Source of the DNA: Meghimatium bilineatum
Taxonomy: Eukaryota > Mollusca > Gastropoda > Stylommatophora > Philomycidae
Direction of reading: 5' to 3'
Assembly (NCBI GenBank): GCA_034231615.1
Contig: CM067317.1
Location: 15,591,073-15,655,072, forward strand
Length of the DNA: 64,000 nucleotides
A program made the position numbers and the translations under genes. Within the stretch, counting starts at the first letter, position 1, and each line of letters starts with the position of its first letter. Below the pieces are notes generated by a model. The model was given only the letters and a program-made list of their open reading frames with translations, did no database searches and had not been told where the DNA came from. This document shows, piece by piece, positions 2,070-63,562 of this stretch.

Positions 2070-2114
<45 letters not shown>

Positions 2115-3004: not shown

Positions 3005-3024
3005 CCCCCCCCCCCCCCCCCCCC
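3005..3024 (+). repeat. Homopolymer C tract
   Basis: Twenty consecutive cytosines lie in a pyrimidine-rich stretch downstream of the PLE fragment. Length is likely to be unreliable in an assembly. Confidence 0.9.
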
Positions 3025-3263: not shown

Positions 3264-3299
3264 CTTGATAACGGTCCCAATAGGACCGACACGTCGATA
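3264..3299 (+). ncRNA. Degenerate hammerhead-like ribozyme motif of a Penelope-like element
   Basis: The stretch reads CTTGATAAC, then GGTCC, a CAATA loop, GGACC, GACAC and GTCGATAA. The five-base stem pairs perfectly. A hammerhead has CUGAUGA, stem II, GAAA and a GUC-type cleavage context; here the first core block is TTGATAA and GAAA reads GACA. Hammerheads are known from PLE terminal repeats, and this one lies 1.45 kb downstream of a same-strand PLE nuclease fragment. The mutated core predicts no activity. Confidence 0.5.
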
Positions 3300-3411
3300 A
3301 TTTTCTTTGCTTTTTATTTTATTGTTCTTTATTAGTATTTTATATTGATAATTAGTTCTCTACAGTAACCTGTATACTTAATTTAGTATTTACCTCCGTA
3401 TTCTTCCCATG

Positions 3412-3613
3412 CTTTCGCTTTTGCTTTTTGTATTATGTCTTTTGCTTCTGTATTATGTCTTTTGCTTTTTGTATTATGTCTTTTGCTTTTTGTATCATGT
3501 CTTTTGCTTTTTGTATTATGTTTTTGCTTTTTGTATTATGTCTTTTGCTTTTTGTATTATGTTTTTGCTTTCTGTATTATGTCTTTTGCTTTTTGTGTTA
3601 TGTCTTTTGCTTT
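3412..3613. repeat. Minisatellite, 21-bp unit, about 9-10 copies
   Basis: The unit is TGTATTATGTCTTTTGCTTTT, with occasional loss of one T giving 20-bp units. All three plus-strand frames stay open as hydrophobic F/L/C repeats, which reflects base composition. Confidence 0.9.
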
Positions 3614-4262
3614 TCTTTTCTTCAAGAGCAGTAGGCGATTATAATCAGATGATTTCTTGTGAATCATTGCCTAGGCAGCTGATGCACTTATGGTAATCGT
3701 TGTGCTAAGATGCAGGTTCATGAAACCTTATCTTTACATTTATCTCTTATCCTTATTATATGTTTTATATGCATGTGTGTTCGAAACTATTGCTATTCTT
3801 AAGACATAAGCTTTGAGATCTATATTTTTGTGTACTTTCGCCTGTGTTATCTTTTGTACATAATGGTTCATATCAAGCGAGTTCCCACGTTATCGTACAT
3901 ATTAAAAATATAATTATGTTGAGACAGATATTATTCTATAATGAACTCTAACATCAACAGTGGTTACATGTTCCACCGAGACGGGGGAATGTTTGAAGTA
4001 GATAGCCATCGAGTACAAAATTGATACAAGTTCTTTTCATTATCATGGAATCAATGCTTTACATCTATTCATATTATTTTGAGAGAACTGTTCCTTTTAT
4101 TATTACTAGCGCAATTTCAGTTTATTTTATACCTCTATTTACCTTTCATTCGGTGAAATTATCATTTACCTTGCGTGTGAAAAATTTAGAGATATGATAG
4201 TGCCTGAAATGTCTAGAAACTTTCTTAACAAAATAAGTAATATCTACTTGAACGTATCAGAC

Positions 4263-4472
4263 AATCACACATCCATCACACAATCAGCCATCACACAATC
4301 AGCCATCACACAATCAACAATCACACAATCATCCATTACACAATCAGCCCACATACAGTCAGCCATCACACAATCAGCAATCACACAATCAGCCCTCACA
4401 CAATCTGCCATCACACAATCAGCCATCACACAGTCAACAATCACACAATCAGCCATCACACAATCAGCCATC
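4263..4472. repeat. Minisatellite, 15-bp unit, about 14 copies
   Basis: The unit is ACAATCAGCCATCAC with AACAATC and ATACAGT variants. The unit is a multiple of three, so open frames persist on both strands (ITQSA on plus, MADCV on minus). There is no start context, signal peptide or flanking coding sequence to support translation. Confidence 0.9.
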
Positions 4473-4530
4473 ATAAAGGCTGCTATGGACTATCATAATT
4501 ATGCACATGTATGTCACATATGCTGGTACT

Positions 4531-5735
4531 TCATCATCACCAAGTGCCGTCACCGCAGCGAAGGTTGACTGCAACAGACCTCCAACATCCCCTGTCTCTT
4601 GTTTTGATGGTGCACTCTGCTATACTGTAACCTGTCCATCTTGTTATGTTAATCTTCCACTTGTATCTATCTACCTCTTGATCGCTTCCCTTTGACTTTA
4701 CCCTCAAGTAAGGTCTTCTTTAAGGTGTCATGTTTTTAATATGTCCAAAATATTTTATTTGCATGAACTTTATTTTTCGTAGTAATTATTTCTTCATATT
4801 AAGTGTTGCTAGAACCTCTTTGTTTGTTTTCTTTTCTTTCCATGATGTTCTCCCTATTCTTCTATATAGTAAAGTAACCCATAGCAATTATTAATGCCGT
4901 GGGGTGTGAGATGCTAGCGATCTCACATTTCAGATGCTCTGCAAATGAGGGCGGAAGCCATCTCCTCTCCCTCGCACTCTTTACTTCCCGGATTAATCTG
5001 GTACCCATTTAAGGCTGGGTCGACCTGGGAGCCGTTGCGATCTGAAAAACATTTCCGCCTCAACTAGGGAATGAACCGAGGACCACTCATATGTGAAGCC
5101 AGTGCGCTAACCACTATAGCGCGGCTCCCTAAGATATATACTTCTATATACCCACATCTTAATGGCATGAATCCTATCTTCCAATTGTTTGTTTAGTATC
5201 CATATTTTTTAGCCATACATTAATATAGAATAGATAGTTAGTTAATCGTTGGATCATCATCACTGCAAACTGCACACGTCCATAGTTGCTCCAATCTTTC
5301 CTTGAGTGTATTAGCCATTACACTTCTGCTGATAGTACCGGTCCTATGCTGGTTGATCATCATTCTTCTGCGCCCTCCAAAATGTTCACTTCTAGCAACA
5401 CCGCATTTCAAATAAAATAGATGTAGCATTTTATAATTCTCATTAAACTTGTTTGTAATTTTTTTAGATGTTAATATTTACCTCATGTCATTGAAGGTAC
5501 TTTTAGCCATTCCTATTCTCCTTTTAATTCCTGCTTCAAATCTGCCGTCATTTGTGAGTGTCCAAGATATTGATAATGTTTTACTTGTTATAGTTTCCAT
5601 GTATGTTTATGTTTCACTCTTGTTCCTCTATGTCCTTGCTGATTACCGTGGTTTTTTATTTTTGGATATTTATATCCAGTCCATATTCTTTACTTGATTT
5701 ATTGACTTGATCTATTAGTCTTTGTATTGCTGGTA
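4531..5735 (-). pseudogene. RTE-type LINE (family E here), 5'-truncated and split by a SINE
   Basis: Read on minus from 5735 down, the copy gives a block matching the region after the RT palm (YGLDIN, then TNDGRFEAGIKRRIGMAKSTF with shifts). It continues into the C-terminal region and ends at a 3' terminus with the complement of CATCATCACCAAGTGCCGTC near 4531. The segment 4700-4868 is a close match, inverted, to 29312-29490. A SINE interrupts it at 4869-5140. No frame is intact. Confidence 0.7.
4869..5140 (-). mobile_element. tRNA-derived SINE inserted in the RTE copy, 10-bp target duplication
   Basis: On minus, the head contains an A-box-like TAGTGGTTAGCG (complement of 5105-5116) and a B-box-like GGTTCATTCCC (complement of 5067-5077), the two internal pol III promoter elements. 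A body and a short tail at 4869-4896 follow. Identical CTTCTATATA copies flank it at 4859-4868 and 5141-5150. Removing the insert restores the RTE sequence seen at 29305-29330. The body has GGTCGACCCAGCC and AAATGGGTACC words that recall conserved central domains of invertebrate SINE superfamilies; that family link is unverified. Confidence 0.85.
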
Positions 5736-6240: not shown

Positions 6241-6394
6241 GTGATACTGGCCAATTGATTTATTTTTAATTGAACGTTATCGAGCCTCTTTATTAATCAG
6301 ATTCCTAACATTAGTATTAACTTCTCTAATGGTTCAGCAACAGTAGTTCTTCTTCCTCTTCTGCGTTGCTCTCTTATAACAACATCGAATAAAT

Positions 6395-6625
6395 CGTGTG
6401 ATTTCCGCCAGGAAGCGTGAAGTAAGTTGTACTGCAAGTCCACAGTTGAACTGTGTTATTTGCGCCTCGGTTGGTTTACTTTGTGACCGGAACATCCGAG
6501 GCCCAGCACATCCGTTTTCGTCATGCCTTCAATTCGGGCAGTAGTCTTCACTAACCAGTGAGAACCTGCCTTTCTGTCGACGGGCGCGAGGGTTTGTAAT
6601 GACTCTTCACCGAGACCATACAGTA
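6395..6625 (-). mobile_element. Diverged 3' fragment of the A-tailed composite element
   Basis: The block shares ATTTCCGCC-AGGAAGCGTGA, GGCCCAGCACATCCG, CATGCC and ACTCTTCACC words, in order, with the T-rich end of the element at 12889-13998 and at 31271-32478. It is far more diverged than those copies and lacks the T-rich terminus. Confidence 0.6.
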
Positions 6626-12888: not shown

Positions 12889-13998
12889 TTTGTTTGTTTT
12901 GTTTTGCGTTCGTTCCATTGTAATCATCACGGATATTCGTGTGATTTCCGCAGGAAGCGTAGTTACGTTGAGCTACCATTATGCGCCTTGTAGGCCCAGC
13001 ACAGCCGATTTCAGCATGCCGTGACATTTCGGATGGGCTACCCTAGTCTGTGACAGCCTTCCTATCTGTCGCCAGGCAGTGAATGTGTACTGACTCTACG
13101 CCGAGATGGTTTGTCCTTCACGTCTATCATGCACACGGTGTTCTGCCGCCAGTGAACTTGTCTCGTGTAATTAGACGTATTGTGTCCGTGCCAATCGCGT
13201 TTTGAATCTTTTCTCATCCTCGAGCTTGGTTCCGGTTACGGAAGAACTCGGCAGAAAAGTTGGGCTTGGACTCGTTCCCCTTCTTAGCCGAAGTGTTGTT
13301 CACCAACTTCGTGAACCACTAGTCCAAAACTGAGTCTATACACATAGTTAGGAGCGTCAGAGATTAGCATATTATTATAGAGATGCATAGTGCTTATCAC
13401 CTTGGACGGCTGTGACTGTGCCCAACGGATACTGAACGTTTTCTCTCCGCGAGCATGATTCCGATATAGGAAAAACGCGACAGTGGATCGGGGCCCGTGC
13501 TGGGATCACCGGTAACTAGAAGCTTGTCTCGATCAAACAAAACTTTAGTTCCGATTTCATTGAAACGTTTTCCGTTCACTTTGCATATGATGCTGCCCTC
13601 TAGTGCTGTGCTTTCCTCTCAGTCTACTCATTGTGCTATTCTTATGGTGACTGAAGCACCAATTATTTATATTTCTCATAACATTTGCCCACTTTGTAAC
13701 ATCTGCATTGGCCTTCCCTCCAATGCTTCTGCCGAACTGACTAGCTTCACTGTGTGTCCACAGTGCTGTTGCATATGTTGGCATTGAGGTGTCGGAGATA
13801 TTGTCTGTCTTTTTGCAGTCAAATCTCTTTCCATCTGCTACTTCCCCATTCACGGACTTCCCCAAAAATTGCAGCCAGAATCAGCACCAGCAGCTGTATT
13901 TCTGTTTCCAGGGTGCACCACGATGAGGTACTTTTGGGATCTTGATAATCTGCTAACCCTGGGTCCGCCAACAGCAATGCGGTACCCTTTGCACTCCA
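12889..13998 (-). mobile_element. A-tailed non-autonomous composite retroelement, copy B
   Basis: On minus the element starts at a 5' end shared with two other copies (TGCAAAGGG-ACCGCATTGCT) and ends in an A-rich tail, seen as TTTGTTTGTTTTGTTTTGCG at 12889-12908. Target repeats are GGTCTTTACTTG (12877-12888) and GGTCTTGACTTG (13999-14010), one mismatch in 12. No long coding frame is conserved among copies. Inside, near 13390-13500, it has one roughly 106-bp unit that is repeated in the other copies. Known parallels are A-tailed elements moved in trans by a LINE. Confidence 0.85.
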
Positions 13999-17250: not shown

Positions 17251-17252
17251 AC

Positions 17253-18180
17253 ATGCTGAGAAACAACAACAACAATACTTCACTATATTATCATGTCCAC
17301 ATGCTGAGAAACAACAACACCAACAATACTTCACTATATTATCATGTCCACATGCTGAGTAACAACAACACCAACAATACTTCACTATATTATTGTGTCC
17401 ACGTGATGAGAAACAACAACAACATTACTTCACTATATTATTGTGTCCACGTGATGAGAAACAACAACAACAATACTTCACTATATTATCATGTCCACAT
17501 GCTGAGAAACAACAACACCAACAATACTTCACTATATTATTGTGTCCACGTGATGAGAAACAACAACAACAATACTTCACTATATTATCATGTCCACATG
17601 CTGAGAAACAACAACAACAATACTTCACTATATTATTGTGTCCACATGCTGAGTAACAACAACAACAATACTTCACTATATTATCATGTCCACATGCTGA
17701 GTAACAACAACAACAATACTTCACTATATTATCATGTCCACATGCTGAGTAACAACAACACCAACAATACTTCACTATATTATTGTGTCCACATGCTGAG
17801 TAACAACAACACCAACAATACTTCACTATATTATTGTGTCCACGTGATGAGAAACAACAACAACAATACTTCACTATATTATTGTGTCCACATGCTGAGT
17901 AACAACAACAACAATACTTCACTATATTATCATGTCCACATGCTGAGAAACAACAACAACAATACTTCACTATATTATTGTGTCCACATGCTGAGAAACA
18001 ACAACAATACTTCACTATATTATCATGTCCACATGCTGAGTAACAACAACAACAATACTTCACTATATTATCATGTCCACATGCTGAGAGACAGTAACAA
18101 CAATACTTCACTATATTATCATGTCCACATGCTGAGAAACAACAACAACAATACTTCACTACATTATCATGTCCACATGC
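17253..18180. repeat. Minisatellite, 45/48/51-bp unit, about 19 copies
   Basis: The unit holds ATGCTGAG, a CAA run, TACTTCACTATATTATCATG and TCCAC. Units differ by CAA or CACCAA insertions and by linked point variants (TCATG versus TTGTG; CATGCTGAG versus CGTGATGAG). All length changes are multiples of three, so a 326-codon plus frame and a 244-codon minus frame survive. The plus frame has no signal peptide or non-repeat body; its last 15 codons are unique sequence. Confidence 0.95.
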
Positions 18181-18429
18181 TAGGGGTTTACTGCAGGTTT
18201 ATCTACATATACACAGACCTAACATGGGCATGAAAAATTCACTTCCCGGTTACGATCGGAGGCTCATAATTTGAATGTTTTGATTCGATTAGAATACTGT
18301 GTCTGTAGTAATACGAGTTTTAAAATGTATAAAATGTTTTATTTTCCTGGAATTTTACTGAGGAAATATATTAACGTGCACCCAATAAGATTTAAAAAAT
18401 CGCCATACTGGAAGAAGGAGAAATAATAT

Positions 18430-25514: not shown

Positions 25515-25632
25515 AATATACTCATAACTATTTCTGAAACATGACGGAAAATAAAATGGCAGTGTAATTAGGACAGGCATGGATACACCACTAAACGATA
25601 AAGAGAATGCTGAAAGAGATAATGTACATATT

Positions 25633-26066
25633 TGTCATGTGACGTATTCCTTCCAGAACGTTGGCTTCCCAATGAACTCTCTGAACCTCTCTCTGTCTTG
25701 GGCGATGTGGCTTGCATTTTCTAGCGATGTATTCATGTTATCTTTAATGTCGTCAGTCCATCGTCTTCTTGGTCTGCCCCTTCTCCTCTTCCCAGGTACT
25801 CTTCCCTCCATTATTTGTCTTTCTAAACAGTTATGTCTCTTTATATGACCAAACAGGCGTAGTTTTCTTTTTGTTATTGTATTTAGTAACCAACACTCTG
25901 GAATATTCAGTGTGTTTATAATATCTGAGTTTTTGATTTTATCCTTCCATGATATTCTAAATATCTTCCTGTAGCATTTCAGCTCGAAGGCGTTGATCCT
26001 CTCTGTCGCTGTTTTACTTAGAGTCCATGTTTCACAGCCGTATGTTGCAACCGGAAAAATAAAAGT
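25633..26066 (-). pseudogene. RTE family B, 5'-truncated 3' end
   Basis: On minus this runs from TTTTATTTTTCCGGTTGCAA (26066) to the terminal ACGTCACATGACA (25633). It corresponds to residues from the FIFPVATYGCETWTLSK block to the stop of the plus-strand copy at 57776-59157. The 5' truncation falls beside the 3' tail of RTE family A. Confidence 0.85.
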
Positions 26067-31241: not shown

Positions 31242-32692
31242 AATCGACGTTTCAGCCAAAGGACCTTTATTGTATTTTATTATTATTTTTTTTTTGCGTT
31301 CGCTCCATTGTAACCAGCACGGATATCCGTGCGATTTCCGCCGGGAGCGTGATTACGTTGTGCCACCGTTATGCGCCTTGTAAGCCTAGCACATCCGATT
31401 TCGGCATGCCTCGACAATTCGGTTGGGCTACCCTAGCCTGTGACAGCCTCCATATCGGTCTCCAGGCACACGTGTATGTGGTGACTCTTCGCCCAGACGA
31501 TTTTTGCTCTCGTCTGTCTCGCACGAGGTGTTCCACTGTCTATGAACTTGCCTCGTGGAATTGGACGTACTGTGCCTGTGTCCATCGGGTACTGAACCGT
31601 TTCTCATCCGTGAGCCTGGTTCCTTAAGGGGAAGAACTCAACAGAAGAGTTGGACCCTGGCTCTTTTGCCCTCTTAGCCGAGGTGTCATTCACCGACATC
31701 GTGTACCCCTTGTCCAAGTTTGAGTCTCACACCACGCGTTTGAGAGCAAGGCTTTCTCGAGCTGAGCGACTTTGTCCCAATAGCGCCTGAGCCCATCAGG
31801 TACTGAACCCTTTCTCTCTGCAAGTGTATTTCCGGTATAGGAAAACTTGACAGTAGAGTTGGGTCAGGACTGTCATCGTTGTCCCTTTCTTGCCTAAGCC
31901 CATCTGGTACAGAACCCTTTCTCTTCGCGAGCATATTTCCGGTTTAGGAAGGCTCGACATTAGAGTTGGGTTAGGTCTTATTGCTTTTCCGAACGCCAAT
32001 GATTGGTTCTGGGTCTCTGTCTGTAGGGAGCACAGGTAACTACAAGCTCGTCTCGAGCTGACGGAGCTTGTAGTTCCGCTTTCCTAGGAACTTTTCACTT
32101 TCTATTTGCAGTTCGCGCTGCCCTCTAGCGCTGTTCTGCCCTGTCATTGTTTCATTGTACTCAGTATGAAATATATTTGTCTCTCGCCATGCATCTACCT
32201 TTATGTGAATTTTACATTGGCCGCCCTTCCAATGTAGGGACTGGACTGACTAGCTTCACTGTATGTCGACAGTGCCGCTATATGTGGTGATGCTGGTGGT
32301 GTCGGAGATATTGTCTGTCTCTTATGCAGTCAAATCTCTTTCCATCTCTTACCTCCACATTCTCAGCTCGAGCTGCTGTATTTCTGTTTCCAGGGTGCAC
32401 CACGAGGAGGTACATTTGGGATCTTGGTTATCTGCTAACCCTGGGTCCACCTAGAGCAATGCGTTCCCTTTGCACCCCAAAGACCTTCATCAAGACAAAC
32501 ATTGAAACAAAATTAAAACATACAACAGAAAACGAGCAGTAAGGATATTGATGTTCACATTGGCATATATGTAAATATAGATTGATCGGAAAGGGAGAAG
32601 CAACACCGGACAAAGAATATACAAAAATGACTACATACATATGGCACGAAACACGCAGAAACTATAGAACTACTAGAACAAAGAAGAAGAAC
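31242..32692 (-). ncRNA. PLE 3' region with hammerhead-like motif, interrupted by element copy D
   Basis: On minus the right piece (complement of 32479-32500) reads TTGATGAAGGTCTTT. The left piece (complement of 31242-31270) continues AAAGGTCCTTTGGCTGAAAC followed by GTCGATT. Removing the insert and one target copy gives TTGATGA, GGTCC, TTT, GGC, TGAAAC and GTC, close to the hammerhead core order and better preserved than the copies at 3264 and 38071. It lies downstream, on the same strand, of the GIY-YIG fragment at 32693-33540. Confidence 0.55.
31271..32478 (-). mobile_element. A-tailed non-autonomous composite retroelement, copy D
   Basis: On minus it starts GGGGTGCAAAGGGAACGC at 32478, the same 5' end as copy E. 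It carries two to three roughly 106-bp internal units and ends in an A-rich tail seen as T runs at 31277-31295. Imperfect target repeats AAAGGACCTTTAT (31258-31270) and AAAGACCTTCAT (32479-32490) flank it. Both lie in a PLE hammerhead-like motif, which explains how they should read before insertion. Confidence 0.8.
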
Positions 32693-38750: not shown

Positions 38751-39053
38751 ATATATAAACATCAAAATAGATCAGAAATACATGTGAAACAAATATAAAT
38801 CGAAACATAGATGTATGAAAGATACCCACACAAAATGCATAAGCATGTAAATATATCCACACTCAAGTGAGGGCTCACACAAGGATAGGCGTACATATTG
38901 ACACAGAATGGAGCCATATGCATTAACATAAATAAGCACTCACATAAATATATATATATCCATGTATATACATGTTTCTGTGGATGCATGTGGAGGCATG
39001 TCGGTGTAGAATTATGCTGCAATGGATTCCATCACACTGTTGAATAGCAGGAA

Positions 39054-39345
39054 ATGAGAGAGCTGATCAACTGGCCAATGGGGGTTCTAACATGCAACAA
39101 CCGGATGTACCAATCTTTTATCACTACAGAAAATCCATGTGAAGAGACACAATTGTTTGGAAGTTTGGAAAGATTAATCATGGAGGGGAAAGTGCCAGGA
39201 AAGAGAGTAAGTGACCAAGACTACGATGGACACATGACATCGAAGACCTGAACATGAACTGGAAGAGGCTGGGTGACTCGCACAGAACCGTGGGGCTTAT
39301 AGAGTGGAAGTGAGGACAACATTCTACAAATGACACGTAACATAG
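39054..39345 (+). pseudogene. RTE family B-like C-terminal fragment (unit 1)
   Basis: Encodes LFGSLERLIMEGKVPGKRVS, then DQDYDGHM; a shifted frame continues EDLNMNWKRL and TVGLIEWK. This parallels LFGHIKRHNCLERQILEGRV and the end of family B, with GHIK changed to GSLE. The duplicate is at 43105-43396. Confidence 0.65.
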
Positions 39346-40139
39346 GGAGAGATGGACAAAATCATATTTCATGTATGAACAGAATGATTTATGCTTTATA
39401 TATACTGACTATTTTTTGCACATTCCCACTAGAACATTAACGAATTACACAAAAATCAAATTCTACTGTTTAATTAATGCTTCTCTAATTTGTTCACCTC
39501 GTGACAGCAACTAACGCACGCATGTAATACTCGTTACACTGATTGCATAAATGAATCTAGACAGCTCAACGATATATTCATTTGAAATTGTTTAGTGGTC
39601 ATCATTCTAACAATATATCATACGAGATACAACGTTCGATGAACTTGCACAATTGTTAACGAATTGTATTTTGGTTACACTTAGCTATAACCTCATGGAT
39701 TTCATTTAATTTACCAAGAATCGCTACAAATCTTAATCCCCTTGGATTAAGAATCATCTGTTACTAATTTACAATGTTTTTTTGCACTGTTGTATGCGTT
39801 ATAGTACAATACTGTATTCACTGCCGATGGAAGATTATATACTGTTACATGACTGTTCCTGCATGTTGTTAATACAACGGAAAATCAAATATTATTATCA
39901 ATTGCTGCAACTGTTAATGTTTTACAAAAAATTAACAAAACAGTTTCTGATAAATGTGACTGTATGACAAGCATAACGACTGCAGAACATATGTTGCCAC
40001 AGTGTCCTGGATGTGAGAATTGTAGAAATTGTATGAGATCGTCACAAATACCCTTCATTAACAAACATATAGTTTCATAAATATACTGTATTCACTATTA
40101 CAATAAAGATCAATCTATAAATCTATAGGTAGCTAGTGA

Positions 40140-40590
40140 TAAGTATACTGTTATGCGAATGTGAAAAACTGGGCACTAAATTCGAACACAGAAAAAGGAT
40201 TTAGACTTTTGAATACAAGTGGTACAAACGTTTGTTAAGAATTAGTTATACTGAACACAGTATTCGTAGCCTATTTTCGTTCGGCAGCAAATAAATACAC
40301 TTGCTGGTTATCATGAACAACTATTGCCAGTGGTGAAACAGCGTTAACCATGGTTTGGACATGTAACCAGGCACAACTCACTTTCCAAAACTATTATCAA
40401 GGACCAGTCGTGGGTGGACGGAGAAGAGACGGTCATAGAAAATAGCAATAAAATCAAGGCCTGTGCCTAGCATGATTGTTCTACATTCGTCTGAATGTCT
40501 TATGACAGACATGTTTGAAGTACTTTTTTGTACTGATGTCTCCTATGTAGCACGTCTACGATTCCACCCGGGTGTGGATATTGTTATTTT
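40140..40590 (+). pseudogene. RTE family C thumb-to-tail fragment (unit 1)
   Basis: Broken frames give FEYKWYKRLLRISYTEHSIR, WFGHVTRHNSLSKTIIKDQS and GGRRRDG, matching the FE-x-K-x-x-RRLL-x-ISY and GHVTRH-x-SL-x-KTI blocks of family C. It ends directly in an ATT array, the same tail as the copy at 9612. Confidence 0.65.
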
Positions 40591-40748
40591 AATACTATTA
40601 TTATTCTATTTTTGTTATTATTATTATTATTAATATTATTAATATTAATATTATTATTATTATTATTTATTAGTATTATTTGTTATTTATTAGTATTATT
40701 AGTATTATTATTTATTTATTATTATTATTATTATATTATTATTTTATG
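40586..40748. repeat. (ATT)n array, tail of RTE family C (unit 1)
   Basis: Interrupted ATT/ATTT repeats. The paralogous tract at 44633-44780 differs in length and interruption pattern, showing change since the duplication. Confidence 0.85.
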
Positions 40749-41548
40749 TTTGGTGCTAAATAGACAGTTTTACTGCTTCTGGTGAGGAACTCTTCTGCCA
40801 ACCACGAACCTTAATACAATTTGGATATATTAGATAGAATAACCATACACAAATAATGAGTACATGGGAACTGCGATATCAGCCTTTAATGTTCACGATA
40901 ATATATTCCTTATTTATATTCACAAGGGAAACAATTTTAGTTCGAGGTCACAGTGTTTTTGTTTACTATGACAATGATAGTTTTAGTCAGAGATTGTTCT
41001 TGTTTGTATATGGTGACAAAACTAGCTCAGAACTTATTTGTTTTATGTGCTGGTTTCATTTAACTTGCCGATTTGTTGTTATGTGCTGCTGCTGCTGCTG
41101 CTGCTTGATAAGGCATGGTGATTGCAACGACGAAATCGACCTTGTTCACATCATTTATATTTATTACTATTTATACTTATTTATAATAATCTTATTAATG
41201 GTAACATGTTATCTATCCTTGTTAATAGTTGAAACGATTATACGCTTACTTTGGCATGAACATCTACTTTATAAGACCTGCAAGCTAATGAGAAATCAAG
41301 CCTTCTTAATGACTCTATCCTTTCCTTGACTATTACCTAGATTCTCAATGCCCCTCACAAAGTATAATCATAGTGCCCAATGAAAATCACTGAAAAAGAC
41401 TTATGAGTCACTAAGAAGGCTTCATTTCTCATTAGCTACTAGATCTTATAGACGGTCATGACTCAGAGTAGTAGATGTGTCTTTCATAAGGGAATTACCT
41501 AAAACAAAAAAAGGGGTTCTACAATCGTAAAGCATACTCCATATACTT

Positions 41549-41683
41549 CGACCTATTGGACGCCCTCGTAAAAGGTGGATAAATAGTGTATTAGAGACAC
41601 TCGGAAATATAACAGCAGAGGAGGCAAATAGAAGGGCAAAAGACCGTACAGTCACACTCCCCTCAACACCGAAAGGTACATGA
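41549..41683 (+). pseudogene. LINE C-terminal tip with (GAA)n tail (unit 1)
   Basis: Encodes RPIGRPRKRWINSVLETLGN, then ITAEEANRRAKDRTVTLPST and a stop. GRPRKRW and A-x-DR are typical of endonuclease-RT LINE C-termini. A GAAGAAGAAGAA stretch follows at 41694-41707. The paralogue is at 45573-45707. Confidence 0.65.
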
Positions 41684-42474
41684 GGACAGAATGAAGAAGA
41701 AGAAGAAAATAGCGGGATGTGAACGAAACAAGATTCAATGCACATGTTCATTGGTAGTGTATGATGGTTTGCGCATTGTATTCATTTTATTGCACGGTCT
41801 AAGAAATTACGTCACTTACGTCACATGAAGAACGTTAGTACAACTGCAGGATACTGCTAGATTTTAGGACCCTGGGAGGATGGCAGGGTTAGGTATAGTG
41901 TTTACAATAAATCTAACGCTAGTACATGCCCCCCCCTCTTCTCGGTGACATTCCAAAACAATAAAAACTTTTACGCGCGCAAATTTTTTTTAAAACTGTA
42001 AGCAGGAAGTAGTATGGGGTATTCTCTGCGATTACTGTTCCAAAAAAGGTCATGTCCTAATTCACGTGGGTATTTCCTGCCTTCTAATTTGATTACTGGT
42101 GAGCTTCCTTTTTGGGTATAAACTATTGGGGAGGGGGGAGGGGGGAGTAGTTATTTATAACCCCTTCTTTACTTTCTTCATATAACTAAATGTTACTCTT
42201 ACAGTATCTAAAGGGTGGGGGTAAACCCCCCCCCCTCCAATCTACAAGTTCATACCTACTTATTTTAGTTGTCTCAGCAAAATCGCTTTTTTAAATTAGT
42301 CAGTGGTCATTAAAAATTATTACTGACGGTAGAACATGTTGAAAGTAGTTTTGTTCATGTAAACCTCTATCTACATTGATAGTTTTAACTTATTTTTGTG
42401 TAAATGACAGAGTTGATTTTATCCGTGATTTTCCTTGATTTGTATTAATTCAATAGTTTCTAAGTTGCAATTTC

Positions 42475-42660
42475 TCCTTTCACCCTCAACTGGTCCTTGA
42501 ACATAGGTTTAGAAAGCGACTCGTGTCTCATACATGTCCAAAACACACAGGTTTACGCTGTTTCACCACTGCCAAAAGTGATTCTTGATTACCTGCAAGT
42601 TTGTTTATTTGCTGTTGGACGAATATATTTATTCCTGTACGTTAACTATACAAATATTTC
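42475..42660 (-). pseudogene. RTE family C relic (unit 1)
   Basis: Matches 9820-9970 in order (CTGGTCCTTGAACATA, TCATACATGTCC, CCAAAAGTGATT, CCTGCAAGTTTGTTTATTTG). It lies about 1.9 kb from the plus-strand family C fragment in the same unit and is in the opposite orientation. Confidence 0.55.
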
Positions 42661-42978
42661 AATTGAGAATCTTCTTTAACTAATTGTGTGCGTTACAAAT
42701 GATTCCCAATCATGCAGATATCACACTTGAACATTGCTTCTGCGTCACTTCGAATCTCTATGTGAAGGAACACACACCTCTATCCCAAAAGCCATTAGTG
42801 GTCTCTTATAACATGCATGGCAACTAACAGGGTCGCTATTATTTGCTTCCCTTTTGAGTACCATCAATACACAGGCGGCAGGAAATATCAACTGGTGACA
42901 GCAAATCAACCGTGGTGTCCTCATTTTAACCAACACTGTCTCCAAATAGATTGAATGGTAAGTAAATATTGCAAAGAA

Positions 42979-44670
42979 ATAAATAAGCACTCACATAAAT
43001 ATATATAAATCCATGTATATACATGTTTCTGTGGATGCATGTGGAGGCATGTCAGTGTAGAATTATGCTGCAATGGATTCCATCACACTGTGGAATAGCA
43101 GGAAATGAGAGAGCTGATCAACTGGCCAATGGGGGTTCTAACATGCAACAACCGGATGTACCAATCTTTTATCACTACAGAAAATCCATGTGAAGAGACA
43201 CAATTGTTTGGAAGTTTGGAAAGATTAATCATGGAGGGGAAAGTGCCAGGAAAGAGAGTAAGTGACCAAGACTACGATGGACACATGACATCGAAGACCT
43301 GAACATGAACTGGAAGAGGCTGGGTGACTCGCACAGAACCGTGGGGCTTATAGAGTGGAAGTGAGGACAACATTCTACAAATGACACGTAACATAGGGAG
43401 AGATGGACAAAATCATATTTCATGAATGAACAGAATGATTTATGCTTTATATATACTGACTATTTTTTGCACATTCCCACTAGAACATTAACGAGTTACA
43501 CAAAAATCAAATTCTACTGTTTAATTAATGCTTCTCTAATTTGTTCACCTCGTGACAGCAACTAACGCACGCATGTAATACTCGTTACACTGATTGCATA
43601 AATGAATCTAGACAGCTCAACGATATATTCATTTGAAATTGTTTAGTGGTCATCATTCTAACAATATATCCCACGAGATACAACGTTCGATGAACTTGCA
43701 CAATTGTTAACGAATTGTATTTTGGTTACACTTAGCTATAACCTCATGGATTTCATTTAATTTACCAAGAATCGCTACAAATCTTAATCCCCTTGGATTA
43801 AGAATCATCTGTTACTAATTTACAATGTTTTTTGCACTGTTGTATGCGTTATAGTACAATACTGTATTCATTGCCGATGGAAGATTATATACTATTACAT
43901 GACTGTTCCTGCATGTTGTTAATACAACTGAAAATCAAATATTATTATCAATTGCTGCAACTGTTAATGTTTTACAAAAATTAACAAAACAGTTTCTGAT
44001 AAATGTGACTGTATGACAAGCATAACGACTGCAGAACATATGTTGCCACAGTGTCCTGGATGTGAGAATTATAGAAATTGTATGAGATCGTCACAAATAC
44101 CCATCATTAACAAACATATAGTTTCAGAAATATACTGTATTCACTATTACAATAAAGATCAATCTATAAATCTATAGGTAGCTAGTGATAAGTATACTGT
44201 TATGCGAATGTGAAAAACTGGGCACTAAATTCGAACACAGAAAAAGGATTTAGACTTTTGAATACAAGTGGTACAAACGTTTGTTAAGAATTAGTCATAC
44301 TGAACACAGTATACGTAGCCTATTTTCGTTCGGCAGCAAATAAATACACTTGCTGGTTATCATGAACAACTTTTGCCAGTGATGAAACAGCGTTAACCAT
44401 GGTTTGGACATGTAACCAGACACAACTCACTTTCCAAAACTATTATCAAGGACCAGTCGTGGGTGGACGGAGAAGAGACGATCATAGAAAATAGCAATAA
44501 AATCAAGGCCTGTGCCTAGCATGATTGTTCTACATTCGTCTGAATGGCTTATGAAAGACATGTTTGGAGGAACTTTTTTGTACTGATGTCTCCTATGTAG
44601 CACGTCTACGATTCCGACGGGGTGTGGATATTGTTATTTTATTACTATTATTATTCTATTTTTGTTATTA

Positions 44671-44714
<44 letters not shown>

Positions 44715-47700
44715 ATTATTATTATTATTTATGTATTAGTATTATTATTTATTTATTATTATTATTATTATATTATTTTATGTTTGGTGCTAAATAGACA
44801 GTTTTACTGCTTCTGGTGAGGAACTCTTCTGCCAACCACGAACCTTAATACAATTTGGATATATTAGATAGAATAACCATACAAAAATAATGAGTACATG
44901 GGAACTGCGATATCAGCCTTTAATTTTCACGATAATATTCTCCTTATTTATATTCACAAGGGAAACAATTTTAGTTCGAGGACAGTTTTTTTGTTTACTA
45001 TGACAATGATAGTTTTAGTCAGAGATTGTTCTTGTTTGTATATGGTGACAAAACTAGCTCAGAACTTATTTGTTTTATGTGCTGGTTTCATTTAACTTGC
45101 CGATTTGTTGTTATGTGCTGCTGCTGCTGCTTGATAAGGCATGGTGATAGCAACGACGAAATCGACCTTGTTCACATCATTTATATTTATTACTATTTAT
45201 ACTTATTTATAATAATCTTATTAATGGTAACATGTTATCTATCCTTGTTAATAGTTGAAACGATTATACGCTTACTTTGGCATGAACATCTACTTTATAA
45301 GACCTGCAAGCTAATGAGAAATCAAGCCTTCTTAATGACTCTATCCTTTCCTTGACTATTACCTAGATTCTCAATGCCCCTCACAAAGTATAATCATAGT
45401 GTCCAATGAAAATCACTGAAAAAGACTTATGAGTCACTAAGAAGGCTTCATTTCTCATTACCTACTAGATCTTATAGACGGTCATGACTCAGAGTAGTAG
45501 ATGTGTCTTTCATAAGGGAATTACCTAAAACAAAAAGGGGTTCTACAATCGTAAAGCATACTCCATATACTTCGACCTATTGGACGCCCTCGTAAAAGGT
45601 GGATAGATAGTGTTTTAGAGACACTCGGAAATATAACAGCAGAGGAGGCAAATAGAAGGGCAAAAGACCGTACAGTCACTCTCCCCTCAACACCGAAAGG
45701 TACATGAGGACAGAAAGAAGAAGAAGAAGAAGATAGCGGGATGTGAACGAAACAAGATTCAATGCACATGTTGGGGTGCAAAGGGAACGCATTGCTCTAG
45801 GCGGACCCAGGGTTAGCAGATAACCAAGATCCCAAATGTACCTCCACGCGGTGCACCCTGGAAACAGAAATACAGCAGCTCGTGCTGATTCTGGCCAAAT
45901 CATTTGGGGATCGTGTCCGAGAATGTGGAGGTAGCAGATGGAAAGAGATTTGACTGCACAAGAGACAGACAATATCTCCGACACCACCAGCTGCACCACA
46001 TATAGCGACACTGTCGACATACAGTGAAGCTAGTCAGTCCAGTCCGAACATTGGAGGGGCGGCCAATGTAAAATGCACGTAAAGGTAAATGCATGGCGAG
46101 AGACAAATATGTTTCATACAGAGTACAATGAAACAATGAAAGGGCAGAACGGCGCTAGAGGGCAGCGCGAACTGCAAATAGAAAGTGAAAAGTCCCTAGG
46201 AAAGGGAACTACAAGCTCCGTCAGCTCGAGACGGGCTTCTAGTTACCAGAGTTCCTAACAGGCAGAGACCCAGACCCATCCATCGGCGTTTGCTAAAGCA
46301 AAAGACCTAACCCAACTCTAATGTCGAGCCTTCCTAAACCGGAAATATGCTTGCAAAGAGAAAGGGTTCTGTACCCGATGGGTGTAGGCAAGAAAGGGAC
46401 AACGATGGTAGTCGTGGCCCAACTCTACTGTCAAGCTTTCCTATACCGGAAGAACACTTGCAGAGAGAAAGGGTTCCGTACTCGATTCGCTCAGGCACAA
46501 AAGGGACAACGATTTAGCCCTGGCCCAACTCTACTGTCAGGTTTTCCTACACCGGAAATACACTTGAAGAGAGAAAGGGTTCAGTACCTGATGGGCTCAG
46601 GCGCTATTGGGAAAAGGACGCTCAGCTCGAGAACGCCTTGCTCTCAAACGCGTGGTGTGAGACTCGAACTTGGACAAGGGGTACACGATGTCGGTGAATG
46701 ACACCTCGGCTAAGAGGACGAAAGAGCCAAGGTCCAACTCCTCTGTTGAGTTCTTCCCCTTAAGGAACCAGGCTCATGGATGAGAAACGGTTCAGTACCT
46801 AATGGGCACAGGCACAGCACGTCCAATTACACGAGGCAAGTTCATAGACAGTGGAACACCTCGTTCGAGTGAGACGAGAGCAAGAAAATCGTCTGGGCGA
46901 AGAGTCTTCACTACGCGTGCCTGGAGACAGATATAGAGGCTGTCACAGGCTAAGGGTAGCCCACCCGAATTGTCAAGGCATGCCGAAATCGGATGTGCTG
47001 GGCCTACAAGGCGCATAACGGTGGCACAACGTAATCACGCTCCCGGCGGAAATCGCACGGATATCCGTGATGGTTACAATGGAGCGAACGAAAAACAAAC
47101 AAACAAAACAATGCACATGTTCATTGGTAGTGTATGATGGTTTGCGCATTGTATTCATTTTATTGCACGGTCTAAGAAATTACGTCACTTGCGTCACATG
47201 AAGAACGTTAGTACAACTGCTGGATACTGCTAGATTTTAGGACCCTGGGAGGATGGCAGGGTTAGGTATAGTGTTTACAATAAATCTAACGCTAGTACAT
47301 GCCCCCCCCCCTCTTCTCGGTGACATTCCAAAACAATAAAAACTTTTAAGCGCGCAATTTTTTTTTTAAACTGTAAGCAGGAAGTAGTATGGGGTATTCT
47401 CTGCGATTACTGTTCCAAAAAAGATCATGTCCTAATTCACGTGGGTATTTCCTGCCTTCTAATTTGATTATTGATGAGCTTCCTTTTTGGGTATAAACTA
47501 TTGGGGAGGGGGGAGGGGGGAGTAGTTATTTATAACCCCTTCTTTACTTTCTTCCTATAACTAAATGTTACTCTTACAGTATCTAAAGGGTGGGGGTAAA
47601 CCCCCCCTCCCTCCAATCTACAAGTTCATACCTACTTATTTTATTTGTCTCAGCAAAATCGCTTTTTTTAATTAGTCAGTGGTCATTAAAAATTCTTACT

Positions 47701-48359
47701 GACGGTAGAACATGTTGAAAGTAGTTTTGTTCATGTAAACCTCTATCTACATTGATAGTTTTAACTTATTTTTGTGTAAATGACAGAGTTGATTTTATCC
47801 GTGATTTTCCTTGATTTTTATTAATTCAATAGTTTCTAAGTTGCAATTTCTCCTTTCACCCTCGACTGGTCCTTGAACATAGGTTTAGAAAGCGACTCGT
47901 GTCTCATACATGTCCAAAACACACATGTTTACGCTGTTTCACCACTGCCAAAAGTGATTCTTGATTACCTGCAAGTTTGTTTATTTGCTGTTGGACGAAT
48001 ATATTTATTCCTGTACGTTAACTATACAAATATTTCAATTGAGAATCTTCTTTAACTAATTGTGTGCGTTACAAATGATTCCCAATCATGCAGATATCAC
48101 ACTTCAACATTGCTTCTGCGTCACTTCGAATCTCTATGTGAAGGAACACACACCTCTATCCCAAAAGCCATTAGTGGTCTCTTATAACATGCATGGCAAC
48201 TAACAGGGTCGTTATTATTTGCTTCCCTTTTGAGTACCATCAATACACAGGCGGCAGGAAATATCAACTGGTGACAGCAAATCAACCGTGGTGTCCTCAT
48301 TTTAACCAACACTGTCTCCAAATAGATTGAATGGTAAGTAAATATTGCAAAGAAATATA
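42979..48359. repeat. Tandem segmental duplication, unit 2 (about 4.03 kb plus a 1.35-kb insertion)
   Basis: Second unit of the duplication. Differences from unit 1 include a CTG microsatellite shortened at 45117-45130, ATT length, scattered single-base changes and the composite element at 45773-47108. Internal features repeat those of unit 1: family B fragment 43105-43396, family C fragment 44190-44632, ATT array 44633-44780, LINE tip 45573-45707, family C relic 47851-48036. Confidence 0.95.
45773..47108 (+). mobile_element. A-tailed non-autonomous composite retroelement, copy E (1336 bp)
   Basis: Starts GGGGTGCAAAGGGAACGC and ends GAGCGAACGAAAAACAAACA with an AAAC-rich tail. Exact 13-bp target repeats CAATGCACATGTT flank it at 45760-45772 and 47109-47121; unit 1 of the duplication has a single copy (41736-41748). 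From about 46312 it contains three successive units of about 106 bp (each starting CCCAACTCTA-TGTC, with CCGGAA and GAGAAAGGGTT) and a diverged fourth at about 46729-46835. Short open frames (46321-46701) run through the repeats; none is conserved with copies B and D. Confidence 0.95.
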
Positions 48360-48657: not shown

Positions 48658-49797
48658 GACGATCATCGGTCATATAATTTATACATCTTGTGGTGACTCA
48701 TCGGTCATATAATTTATACATCTTGTGGTGACTCATCGGTCATATAATTTATACATCTTGTGGTGACTCGTCGGTCATATAATTTATACATCTTGTGGTG
48801 ACTCCTCGATCATATAATTTATACATCTTGTGGTGACTCATCGGTCATATAATTTATACATCTTGTGGTGACTCATCGGTCATATAATTTACACGTTTTG
48901 TGGTGACTCCTCGATCATATAATTTATACATCTTGTGGTGACTCGTCGGTCATATAATTTATACATCTTGTGGTGACTCGTCGGTCATATAATTTATACA
49001 TCTTGTGGTGACTCATCGGTCATATAATTTATACATCTTGTGGTGACTCATCGGTCATATAATTTATACATCTTGTGGTGACTCATCGGTCATATAATTT
49101 ATACATCTTGTGGTGACTCATCGGTCATATAATTTATACATCTTGTGGTGACTCATCGGTCATATAATTTATACATCTTGTGGTGACTCATCGGTCATAT
49201 AATTTATACATCTTGTGGTGACTCATCGGTCATATAATTTATACATCTTGTGGTGACTCATCGGTCATATAATTTACACGTTTTGTGGTGACTCATCGGT
49301 CATATAATTTATACATCTTGTGGTGACTCATCGGTCATATAATTTATACATCTTGTGGTGACTCATCGGTCATATAATTTACACGTTTTGTGGTGACTCA
49401 TCGGTCACATAATTTACACGTATTGTGGTGACTCCTCGATCATATAATTTATACATCTTGTGGTGACTCGTCGGTCATATAATTTATACATCTTGTGGTG
49501 ACTCGTCGGTCATATAATTTATACATCTTGTGGTGACTCCTCGATCATATAATTTATACATCTTGTGGTGACTCATCGTCATATAATTTATACATCTTGT
49601 GGTGACTCATCGGTCATATAATTTATACATCTTGTGGTGACTCATCGGTCATATAATTTATACATCTTGTGGTGACTCATCGGTCATATAATTTATACAT
49701 CTTGTGGTGACTCATCGGTCATATAATTTATACATCTTGTGGTGACTCATCGGTCATATAATTTATACATCTTGTGGTGACTCGTCGGTCATATAAT
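48658..49797. repeat. Minisatellite, 35-bp unit, about 32 copies
   Basis: The unit is CATATAATTTATACATCTTG followed by TGGTGACTCATCGGT. Variants are ACACGTTTTG for ATACATCTTG, and CCTCGAT or GTCGGT for ATCGGT. One unit has lost a G (about 49579). The order of variants is partly repeated, indicating duplication of multi-unit blocks. Confidence 0.97.
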
Positions 49798-49964
49798 TGC
49801 ACAAAACGTACATCTTATGGTGAGGTACTTTTAATCGAAAAGTTGATTCCATTTTTGGTCATCAAAAATAATGGATTTTGGGTAAACATGTCACTATGAT
49901 CTCTCTGCTTTTAAATTAAAGAATACAATCACAAACGCCTCAACATATATTCGTAGAAAAAAAA

Positions 49965-55850: not shown

Positions 55851-56179
55851 ATTAAAAATAACTAAGGGACGTACCATCCATGCATGAAAACCCCTTCCTT
55901 AGCATGTCTTATAATACGTGAAATGTGAAAAATAGTGCGAAATTTATTTAGCAATTAATACCAAAATATTGTAAAAATATGTATCATTATTTTCTATAGT
56001 CCAGCAGTGATTCTTCTTCTTCTTCTTCAGCGTTCATTCTCAAACTCCTGCTGGATCTCTCCTGTAGCAGTACTACTAGATCTCAAGCAGGATGCAGTCC
56101 AGAGAATGGAAATGCGTTGTGTCGCCGTTTTATTTGCGCCAATGGATCGACACATCCGTCTTCGGCGGACAGCAGTGAT

Positions 56180-56720
56180 TCAATGCTTTAGTTTCTATAG
56201 TCCAGCAGTGATTCAATGGTTTAGTTTCTATAGTCTAACAATGATTCAATGGTTTAGTTTCTATAGTCTAACAGTGATTCAATGCTTTAGTTTCTATAGT
56301 CTAACAATGATTCAATGGTTTAGTTTCTATAGTCTAACAATGATTCAATGGTTTAGTTTCTATAATCTAGCAGTGATTCAATTGTTTAGTTTCTATAGTC
56401 TAACAATGATTCAATGGTTTAATTTCTATAGTCCAACAATGATTCAATGGTTTAGTTTCTATAGTCTAACAATGATTCAATGGTACAGTGTCTATAGTCT
56501 AACAATGATTCAATGGTTTAGTTTCTATAGTCTAGCAGTGATTCAAGGGTTTAGTTTCTATAGTCTAACAATAATTCAATGGTACAGTTTCTATAGTCTA
56601 ACAATGATTCAATGGTTTAGTTTCTATAATCTAGCAGTGATTCAATTGTTTAGTTTCTATAGTCTAACAATGATTCAATGGTTTAATTTCTATAGTCGAA
56701 CAATGATTCAAGGGTTTAGT
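56180..56720. repeat. Minisatellite, 33-bp unit, about 17 copies (intron 2)
   Basis: The unit is AGTTTCTATAGTCTAACAAT followed by GATTCAATGGTTT. The unit is a multiple of three, so a 260-codon frame (FYSLTMIQW repeats) survives. A block of several variant units (AATCTAGCAGTGATTCAATT next to AATTTCTATAGTC) appears twice, near 56360 and 56630. Confidence 0.95.
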
Positions 56721-56748
56721 TTTTCGAGTTCCCACGTACATTTCGTTG

Positions 56749-57776: not shown

Positions 57777-59157
57777 TTAAAAATTAATGTTTGTAATATC
57801 CTCATATGGAAAAAATCATTATATATACCCCTCCCAAAAAAAGGCGACCTTCAGATTTGCTCTAACTACCGAACTATAGCCCTTATAAGTCAAGCAAGTA
57901 AAATAATGTTAAACATCATAATGCAAAGAATCAAACAGAAATTAGAGATGGAGATAAACGAAACACAGGCTGGTTTCAGATCGGGCAGAGGAACAAGAGA
58001 TCACATTCTTAACATGAGATTGATCATAGAAAAGTGTAGGGAATTTTCAACTGACCTGCACATGTGTTTCATAGATTACTCAAAAGCGTTCGACTGCGTC
58101 CACCACCAGCAACTATGGGAGATCATGAACAGCATGGGTTTCCCAAGACATCTGATTCATCTAATAGAGGAACTTCACCAAGATCAAAAGGCTGCAGTGA
58201 AGTTAGAGGACGATAGAGTGGTTTGAGGTACAGAGTGGAGTAAGGCAAGGGTGCACACTCTCCCCATACCTGTTCAACATCTACGCTGAAAGTATAATGA
58301 GGAATGTGAGAGAAGACATACACAACACTGACTACCACGCTTTAAACATAGGTGGATTCCTAATCCCGGAACTACGCTACGCAGACGACACAGTGCTTCT
58401 TTCAAATGATATAAAGGGATTGGAACAACTAATCAAGAACACAAAGAAATATAGCGAAGCACAAAATTTGTATTTAAACACGCAGAAAACAAAAATCATG
58501 TCAACAGATATAACAACACAACAACAAAAAATCAGAATAGACAATACCGAGATAGAATGTGTGGATAAATTTTATTACTTGGGAGCAAACATCAACGGTG
58601 CGGGAGACTGCATGGCAGAAATAAGGAAGAGATTGGCAATGGCATATTCCAAAATAACACGGCTGAAAAACATATGGAAAAACAACAAAATAGAAACGAA
58701 AGTGCTAATGTTACGAACTTTTATTTTTCCGGTTGCAACGTACGGATGTGAAACATGGACTCTAAGTAAAACAGCGGCAAAGAGGATCAGCGCCTTCGAG
58801 CTGAAATGCTACAGGAAGATACTTAGAATATCATGGAAGGATAAAATCAGAAACGCAGATATTATAAACACACTGAATATTCCAGAGTGTTGGTTACTAA
58901 ACACAATAACAAAAAGAAAACTACGCCTGTTTGGTCATATAAAGAGACATAACTGTTTAGAAAGACAAATATTGGAGGGAAGAGTACCTGGTAAGAGGAG
59001 AAGGGGCAGACCAAGAAGACGATGGACTGACGACATTAAAGATAACATGAATACATCGCTAGAAAATGCAAGCCACATCGCCCAAGACAGAGAGAGGTTC
59101 AGAGAGTTCATTGGGAAGACAACGTTCTGGAAGGAATACGTCACATGACACAATATC
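57776..59157 (+). pseudogene. RTE family B LINE: reverse transcriptase to 3' end, one frameshift
   Basis: Two frames (57741-58226 and 58297-59148, offset by one) form one protein. Order: IPLPKKGDLQICSNYRTIAL, ETQAGFRSGRGTRDHILNM, FIDYSKAFDCVHH (first catalytic Asp), a frameshift near 58207, WFEVQSGVRQGCTLSPYLF, LRYADDTVLLS (catalytic pair intact), YYLGANI, YGCETWTLSKTA, RKLRLFGHIKRH and KRRRGRPRRRWTDDIKD, ending EYVT-stop. The endonuclease is missing (5' truncation at the minisatellite edge). It is nearly intact and thus relatively young. It lies in sense orientation in receptor intron 2. Confidence 0.88.
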
Positions 59158-60044: not shown

Positions 60045-60533
60045 CTTGAGAATAATTACCAGAATAATGTCATCAAAGAGACTGAGAGAATAATTACCAG
60101 AATAATGTCATCTAAGAGACTGAGAGAATAATTACCAGAATAATGTCATATACGGGGCTGAGAGAATAATTACCAGAATAATGTCATATAAGGGGCTGAG
60201 ATAATAATTACCAGAATAATGTCATATAAGGGGCTGAGAGAATAATTACCAGAATAATGTCATATACGGGGCTGAGAGAATAATTACCAGAATAATGTCA
60301 ATACGGGGCTGAGAGAATAATTACCAGAATAATGTCAATACGGGGCTGAGAGAATAATTACCAGAATAATGTCATATAAGGGGCTGAGAGAATAATTACC
60401 AGAATAATGTCATATAAGGGGCTGAGAGAATAATTACCAGAATAATTTCATATAAGGGGCAGAGAGAATAATTACCAGAATAATGTCATCTAAGGGGCAG
60501 AGAGAATAATTACCAGAATAATGTCATATTAGG
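60045..60533. repeat. Minisatellite, 34-36-bp unit, about 13 copies (intron 2)
   Basis: The unit is GAGAATAATTACCAGAATAA followed by TGTCATATAAGGGGCT, with CTAAGAGA, ATACGGGG and ATAAGGGGCA variants in neighbouring groups. Confidence 0.95.
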
Positions 60534-60832
60534 TGCTGTTCATTAATTACGTCAACAGTTAGTGGGGAGAAGATATATTTGTTGATAAGGGGAGGTTGGG
60601 CTTGACAAATGTTGGCAAATAAATTTCATTTATTTTCCTAAAAATATAGAAAACATATTTCGCTTTATTCGCACTTTTTCAGCATTTTTAGGTCGGCAGG
60701 GCGTAACAACTATTTAACATAATAAATCAGGAAAGCAGGTGGAACCCTGACATCTTAGGACGTTGTTGACCGGCGAGGGGGAGGGAGATTGAGATCAATA
60801 ATAGCCAAAAATATTGTTAATGTTATTTATGT

Positions 60833-62419: not shown

Positions 62420-62930
62420 ACTGCCTTTGAGACAACATATGTAAGTACGTGTATTGTCTCAGTTACGCAACTGTAAGACAACATATGTAAGTACGTGTAT
62501 TGTCTCAGTTACGCAACTGTAAGACAACATATGTAAGTACGTGTATTGTCTCAGTTACACAACTGTCAGACAACATATGTAAGTACGTGTATTGTCTCTG
62601 TTACACAACTGTAAGACAACATATGTAAGTACGTGTATTGTCTCTGTTACACAACTGTGAGACAACATATGTAAGTACGGGTATCGTGTCAGTTACACAA
62701 CTGTCAGACAACATATGTAAGTACGGGTATTGTCTCAGTTACGCAACTGTAAGACAACATATATAAGTACGTGTATCGTCTCAGTTACACAACTGTGAGA
62801 CAACATATGTAAGTACGGGTATCGTCTCAGTTACACAACTGTCAGACAACATATGTAAGTACGGGTGTCGTCTCAGTTACACAACTGTCAGACAACATAT
62901 GTAAGTACGGGTGTCGTCTCATTTGCATAA
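62420..62930. repeat. Minisatellite, 46-bp unit, about 11 copies (intron 2)
   Basis: The unit is CAGTTACACAACTGTAAGAC, AACATATGTAAGTACGTGTA and TTGTCT. Variants (GTGTATTG, GGGTATCG, GGGTGTCG) are graded from left to right, as expected from polar expansion. Confidence 0.95.
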
Positions 62931-63562
62931 CTTATAATAACAACTTGTGCTTTTGTCAGAAAGACTAAGGAATATTAAGAGTTACCTGCACAAATCTAAA
63001 GCGTTTATATCATCTTAAGTACCGTAATAATATAACGTGAAATTATTTCAGTCACTAGCACGCTAAAATATCAAAGTGTCTGAGTTCAGTTCTAGTCAGA
63101 CCCATTTGAAGTAGCTTTTAAGTGGGAAGGGCAATTCGAGAATTATCAACTTACCCCAATTTTGGAACATCAATCGCAATGAAAACCACAAAGATTTATA
63201 AATCCCAAATGAAATGTTCATACCAACACTGCGTTATCAGCGACAGACATGGACAATATTGTCGAAATAAAATTAACCTGTATATCATTAAACAAGGAGA
63301 CTTGAGAGAAATGAATATTTTTGTAATTAGGAATCGGGTGAGGTGGGGTGCCAAAGGGGAGGGGCACAACCAATAATGTTGTGAAACACCGCTCTAGCGT
63401 AAAAAAAAAAAAATGTTTAGTACCGTGAGGTGAAATATAGTGTATACCATGACAGCAGTATGTCTTTTGAAAATACATTTGCCTTTAATAAGAAACAAAG
63501 AATATACAGTTTCTTCGTTTGTTGTTGGTTTTCCATTAATAATCCACCTGTTTTGTTCCCAG
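62931..63562. other. 3' part of receptor intron 2
   Basis: Unique AT-rich sequence with no recognised element. It ends in the acceptor TTTTGTTCCCAG at 63551-63562. Confidence 0.55.

Follow-up and report, generated by a model that had tools for sequence, protein, structure and literature searches.

A young retroelement with a probable HDV-like 5′ ribozyme at the filled one of two paired sites in an apparent gastropod tandem duplication

The R2 SIDEs and R2/R1 hybrid SIDEs of Drosophila are non-autonomous retroelements that join a 5′ hepatitis delta virus (HDV)-like ribozyme to a 3′ end derived from a long interspersed nuclear element (LINE), and the hybrids carry the 3′ end of another LINE and seemingly use its machinery (PMC3414825). 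The insert described in this work, 1336 bp within a stretch of 64,000 nucleotides of contig CM067317.1 (positions 15,591,073 to 15,655,072; hereafter, the window) of the gastropod Meghimatium bilineatum, resembles both in its predicted ribozyme and its apparent non-autonomy. The Drosophila elements, however, are described as rare and reside in rRNA gene loci (PMC3414825), whereas the element from M. bilineatum is dispersed and abundant. NARTc, RIME, and SIDER of trypanosomatids are set apart from it by their description, which gives the Pr77 hallmark and L1Tc/ingi parents (PMC4035085). As for the ribozyme itself, the best Rfam match is drz-agam-1, weak and below the cut-off; large HDV-like ribozymes can carry structured J1/2 domains (PMC4908430), and the J1/2 of the element, of 51 nt and with possible hairpins of its own, differs from that of the drz-Agam ribozymes.

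On the basis of its sequence and of its genomic copies, the insert is probably (about three chances in four) a young, apparently non-coding, non-autonomous retroelement without long terminal repeats (LTRs), with an HDV-like 5′ ribozyme, copied in trans by a LINE. The element adds a case to an already known kind of retroelement. Metazoan retrozymes, which reportedly are non-autonomous and hold self-cleaving hammerhead ribozymes, are similar in these two respects, and differ in the type of ribozyme: no Rfam family, hammerhead included, reached the gathering level anywhere in the window. Among the literature matches listed, a partial set, no title or abstract opening describes a gastropod element headed by an HDV-like ribozyme. 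Compared with an earlier interpretation of this DNA from its letters and open reading frames (hereafter, the sequence-only reading), the ribozyme-like 5′ end and the lack of a recognisable protein are new.

Paired empty and filled sites

The insert lies in the second of two adjacent units, the first of which holds the unoccupied site. The features on which the description depends are as follows.

38928..42978, + strand: unit 1, with the empty site (self-BLAST, unit alignment, genome search)
42979..48357, + strand: unit 2, with the filled site (self-BLAST, unit alignment, genome search)
41736..41748, + strand: unoccupied target, CAATGCACATGTT (sequence match in the window)
45760..45772, + strand: 5′ target site duplication (sequence match, copy comparison)
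45773..47108, + strand: inserted retroelement, 1336 bp, no protein recognised (self-BLAST, copy comparison, open-frame scan)
46302..46618, + strand: internal direct repeat, three units of about 107 bp (repeat comparison; one unit missing in shorter copies)
46979..47108, + strand: 3′ module, the sole part present in L102 and L103, two 3′ ends with no 5′ end close by
47090..47108, + strand: A-rich tail of CAAA-type repeats (sequence, copy comparison)
47109..47121, + strand: 3′ target site duplication, possibly tail in its initial CAA (sequence match, copy comparison)

On both strands of the window, CAATGCACATGTT occurs only at 41736, 45760, and 47109, each time on the + strand. Window self-BLAST aligns 42979-45772 with 38928-41748 at 97.4% identity and 47098-48357 with 41722-42981 at 98.1%, and without the insert the units measure 4051 bp (unit 1) and 4030 bp (unit 2), which makes them adjacent copies of a repeat of about 4.05 kb. 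Their pairwise alignment, a check already suggested by the sequence-only reading, shows that they match apart from the insert, with 12 gaps and with substitutions at 65 (1.62%) of the 4023 positions aligned.

That reading had proposed paired sites, one empty and one filled by a retroelement, inside a tandem duplication, which is borne out by the positions of the 13-mer, the self-BLAST, and the common 5′ start of the 40 best copies; its insert length of 1336 bp (45773-47108) is confirmed as well. Its unit boundaries hold in general, except that unit 2 ends at about 48357 instead of 48359. Both element ends had been considered fixed to the base. This is true for the 5′ end, with which the ribozyme-like fold agrees, but the 3′ end is ambiguous by 3 nt because the tail itself consists of CAAA repeats and shares CAA with the target. 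Consequently, the target duplication, given before as 13 bp, is 10–13 bp here, since the CAA of its 3′ copy could belong to the tail. The insertion event itself is ordinary, but the case is exceptionally clean: with the filled site and the empty one in the same assembly at a distance of 4 kb, the ends of the element follow almost without outside data.

The order of events, for which the sequence-only reading placed the insertion after the duplication, is favoured by mutation counts. Three sites set the insert apart from 90% or more of its 39 best relatives, and its nearest copy also differs from it at 3 sites. If the insert were as old as the duplication, 9.6 differences would be expected with a TTA tract excluded (Poisson P 0.014), or 10.7 when the whole unit is counted (P 0.006), in a test that assumes equal rates, leaves out family-variable sites, and uses relatives picked for their likeness. 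Outside the TTA tract, the units differ at 56 of 3853 positions. Transversions outnumber transitions among these differences (22 transitions to 34 transversions), the opposite of what is seen among the element copies (91 to 74).

Two other histories would produce the same arrangement. If the element were older than the duplication, the 13-bp direct repeats could have mediated its loss from unit 1, through recombination or slippage, and left an identical, exact empty site; the 3 differences from the family majority against the 9.6 expected, together with a nearest copy only 3 sites away, favour a later insertion and make such a loss very unlikely. On the other hand, the duplication could be an assembly artefact in which two haplotypes had been joined in series; the sites would then be allelic and the insertion polymorphic. 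This explanation is doubtful, although it has several points on its side. A 2808-bp query from unit 1 finds two near-full-length places in the genome (1.61 Gb, 32 contigs), both in the window, the remaining scored matches being shorter, and the 40 best-scoring places include no third long copy of the unit, a strong though not exhaustive result. The homology at the duplication junction, assessed by eye, amounts to a few bp only, and the units diverge by 1.5–1.6% with indels. Divergence of this size lies in the range that heterozygosity could give. Nothing decisive stands against the artefact, as the flank-unit-unit-flank structure is alike in both cases. With a real duplication or with haplotypes end to end, the empty site would represent the pre-insertion state.

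A dispersed family with a common start

The insert is a member of a dispersed family with thousands of copies: its exact 3′ 30-mer is found at 7344 places genome-wide and its exact 5′ 30-mer at 6099, while reversed-pattern controls are found at none. The 39 best other copies are 99.1–99.8% identical to the insert, and all 40, with the insert included, start at the same base with GGGGTGC. A script detected target duplications in 39 of the 40, which measure 10–14 bp in the 36 clean cases (the insert's own among them), and the tails consist of CAAA-type repeats of varying length. The target sites were tabulated for 36 of the 40 copies (L002, L009, L012, and L037 were dropped). The duplication directly abuts nucleotide 1 in 23 of them, shares one or two Gs with it in 12, and is separated from it by one extra base in 1. 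At the target, position −2 is a T in 27 of the 36, position −1 a pyrimidine (T or C) in 33, and position +1 an A in 30.

On contig 1, 55 of the 100 listed 3′ places have a same-strand partner, an exact 5′ 30-mer no more than 6 kb away; of the 5′ places, 100 of which were listed, this pairing used the 72 whose position does not exceed 24.34 Mb. The spacing corresponds to the full length in 32 of these pairs, is about 107 bp shorter in 15, which therefore hold one internal repeat unit fewer, and takes other values in 8. Among the first 20 listed 3′ places, a sample from the beginning of a single contig, 16 extend to the 5′ start (one lacking one G), three have no further element upstream, and one is ambiguous. 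In being mostly full-length, the element resembles Alu, which is moved by L1 in trans and whose full-length share is 80.5%, compared to 16.2% for L1 (PMC2912911).

Of ten unpaired 3′ ends, two of them included in the first 20 as well, five are preceded by element sequence 150–270 nt upstream and five are not, and two of the latter five are identical to each other. L102 and L103 are, by eye, short 5′-truncated copies with target duplications, imperfect in the case of L103. The two are independent of each other and start almost at the same place in the element (nt 1207 and nt 1210, respectively), which might reflect a stop site or a short unit in its own right. L111 and L112, also on contig 1, hold identical 120-bp stretches 451 kb apart, each adjoining an element 3′ end, and therefore another duplication may include an element. 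The window bears two further copies of the family: one at about 31292-32478 (−), which lacks the segment from P4 to P2′ of the fold described below, and an older one at 12889-13997 (−), about 79–84% identical.

The HDV-like fold and the probable mode of copying

The 5′ end of the element is likely an HDV-like self-cleaving ribozyme, with its predicted cut exactly at the element start. Its parts are as follows.

45773..45908 (element nt 1-136), + strand: predicted HDV-like ribozyme fold, with the cut predicted just before 45773 (Rfam, descriptor, covariation)
45773..45779, + strand: P1 5′ strand GGGGUGC, partner GCACCCU at 45853-45859, first pair G-U (descriptor, alignment)
45780..45830, + strand: J1/2, 51 nt, with two possible hairpins at 45783-45808 and 45811-45825 (alignment)
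45831..45838, + strand: P2 5′ strand CCCAAAUG, partner CAUUUGGG at 45901-45908 (descriptor, covariation)
45840..45852, + strand: P3 and loop L3, ACC UCCACGC GGU (Rfam, descriptor)
45895..45898, + strand: J4/2, CCAA; CUAA or similar in many older copies (descriptor, older copies)

The nested pseudoknot pattern of HDV-like ribozymes is present, with P1, P2, P3, L3, and J4/2 recognised by a descriptor, P4 through an alignment, and P1.1 by eye; C45895 presumably occupies the place of the catalytic C. The descriptor, which was composed after the motif had been noticed, has a single match on both strands of the window, at 45773, and two of 200 dinucleotide shuffles gave any match. As the predicted cut and the 5′ end of the element fall on the same base, cleavage is the likely reason for the common start of the 40 copies. 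With a loop pattern slightly laxer than the one used in the window scan, the fold is intact in 33 of these 40 young copies.

Older copies, 80–84% identical to the old window copy, provide further evidence, as both strands of their P2 change in step (CCCAAAUG/CAUUUGGG, CCCAAAAG/CUUUUGGG, CCUAAGAG/CUCUUAGG). P2 strands from the same copy form on average 6.39 of 8 pairs versus 5.78 for permuted strands, a value not reached in any of 20000 permutations (18 distinct P2 types; one row of 26, window 32362-32480, was dropped for its deletion from P4 to P2′). In the alignment of 26 rows, from which seven of the 30 loci L051-L080 were left out (L051, the window copy itself; L055, whose 5′ end is lost; and five resembling L058), 88.6% of cells pair, compared to 33–50% in slid versions. 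It contains 16 double-change cells, a number reached in none of 500 shuffles, and its covariation score was reached in four of 500.

The anatomy of the copies suggests how the element is propagated. Its RNA would probably be transcribed within longer transcripts, and the 5′ end of this RNA would fold as an HDV-like ribozyme and cut itself just before nucleotide 1, so that full-length copies would start at the same G. A LINE protein acting in trans would then nick the target, prime on the CAAA tail, and reverse-transcribe the RNA, that is, by target-primed reverse transcription (TPRT), leaving the target duplication of 10–14 bp. In the window, such a copy would have entered a 4-kb unit that was already duplicated, and the other unit would therefore keep the pre-insertion site, an order favoured by the mutation counts. 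The CAAA tail, the target duplications of variable length, and the 5′ truncations (two copies) are marks of TPRT by a LINE in trans, and no LTR is present. No reverse transcriptase (RT) was found in the insert, and the two of its 20 open frames that were scanned gave no Pfam match. If the ribozyme works, its thousands of dispersed copies would constitute an accessible animal system to relate 5′ self-cleavage to full-length insertion by borrowed LINE machinery.

A number of observations nevertheless weigh against this interpretation. The drz-agam-1 match (45818-45908; 24.4 bits, E 0.036) falls below the gathering score of 37 and, as read, omits the P1 5′ strand, which sits upstream across the 51-nt J1/2. 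The remaining seven of the 40 young copies have one common P2 mismatch and yet still spread. Only two of 30 older copies pass the descriptor, or seven when it is relaxed, which is expected of decay and also limits the evidence; the other two copies in the window have no descriptor match, and in the 15 older loci (of the 30) to which it was applied, Rfam yielded a single weak ribozyme match, its other matches there being taken for chance. The P2 permutation test ignores the relatedness of the copies, and the structure used for the alignment was drawn from its first sequence. In that alignment, the number of pairs with a double change was reached in 433 of 500 shuffles and that of further pair types in 452 of 500, slid versions equal or exceed it in pairs with a double change, and variation in P1 is confined to one side. 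When folded for minimum free energy, the 5′ end is unremarkable (z −0.69), an uninformative result because the fold is pseudoknotted and pseudoknots cannot be represented. Regarding the constant start, the 40 copies are the best matches to a full-length query, and L012 has, by eye, nine extra nt ahead of nucleotide 1. Finally, no helper LINE was found among those compared, namely one copy of the commonest intact LINE, the two window LINEs, and two unpaired 3′ ends.

The score under the Rfam cut-off and the sublineage with the P2 mismatch could mean that the fold is no working ribozyme, the constant 5′ end resulting from a transcription start at an internal promoter and the HDV-like pattern from chance or a relic. 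This is unlikely in view of the covariation in P2 and of the coincidence of the only descriptor site on either strand of the window with nucleotide 1, even with a descriptor composed post hoc. A classical short interspersed nuclear element (SINE), with a Pol III promoter from tRNA, 5S, or 7SL RNA, would fit the high copy number and the mostly full-length copies of the small sample. Alu, for instance, has a 7SL head and a Pol III promoter. However, no tRNA was found in the window, Rfam gave no match at the gathering level there for a tRNA, 5S, or 7SL head, and the element is 1336 bp long, all of which makes a SINE of this type highly improbable.

The candidates for the helper of the ribozyme-headed element were rejected for different reasons. 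L101, a copy of the commonest intact LINE (1026-aa open frame; from the best 150 RT matches), shares no 3′ end with the element, and its positions 900-4800 have no Rfam match up to E 1. The two window LINEs with RT frames have 3′ ends that are, by eye, unlike that of the element, and L102 and L103 proved to be just the short truncated copies mentioned above. Similarly, the LINE and 3′-end comparisons made revealed no parent LINE for an origin by internal deletion of the SIDE/NARTc type.

A second subfamily and other features

A 3′ end at window 6350-6610 (−) and loci L105-L107 represent a second subfamily, whose 3′ end is longer and whose tail is of the GAA type. These loci share parts of the body of the element, from nt 6 (L105, 83% identical), nt 85 (L106), and nt 361 (L107). 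A possible, though not the likeliest, reading of these CAAA-ending and GAA-ending subfamilies with a related body is that a very large, recently active, ribozyme-headed non-coding gastropod family exchanged its 3′ module and with it, perhaps, the LINE on which it depends. If true, such an exchange would repeat, naturally and on the scale of a genome, what is known from the R2/R1 hybrid SIDEs (PMC3414825).

Elsewhere in the window, 25628-26066 and 58717-59156 hold the same 3′ piece of an RT gene in opposite orientations, 97% identical, and the former adjoins, by eye, the AACAT tail of another LINE. According to self-BLAST offsets, tandem arrays with units of about 33–48 bp are located at 48663-49798, 17251-18181, 56170-56722, 60048-60538, and 62425-62932. 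Outside the window, contig 2 (123 Mb) bears at 121989805-121990428 a COX1 fragment, similar in its sequence to that of a pulmonate gastropod and containing five TGA codons, which is likely a mitochondrial piece in the nucleus.

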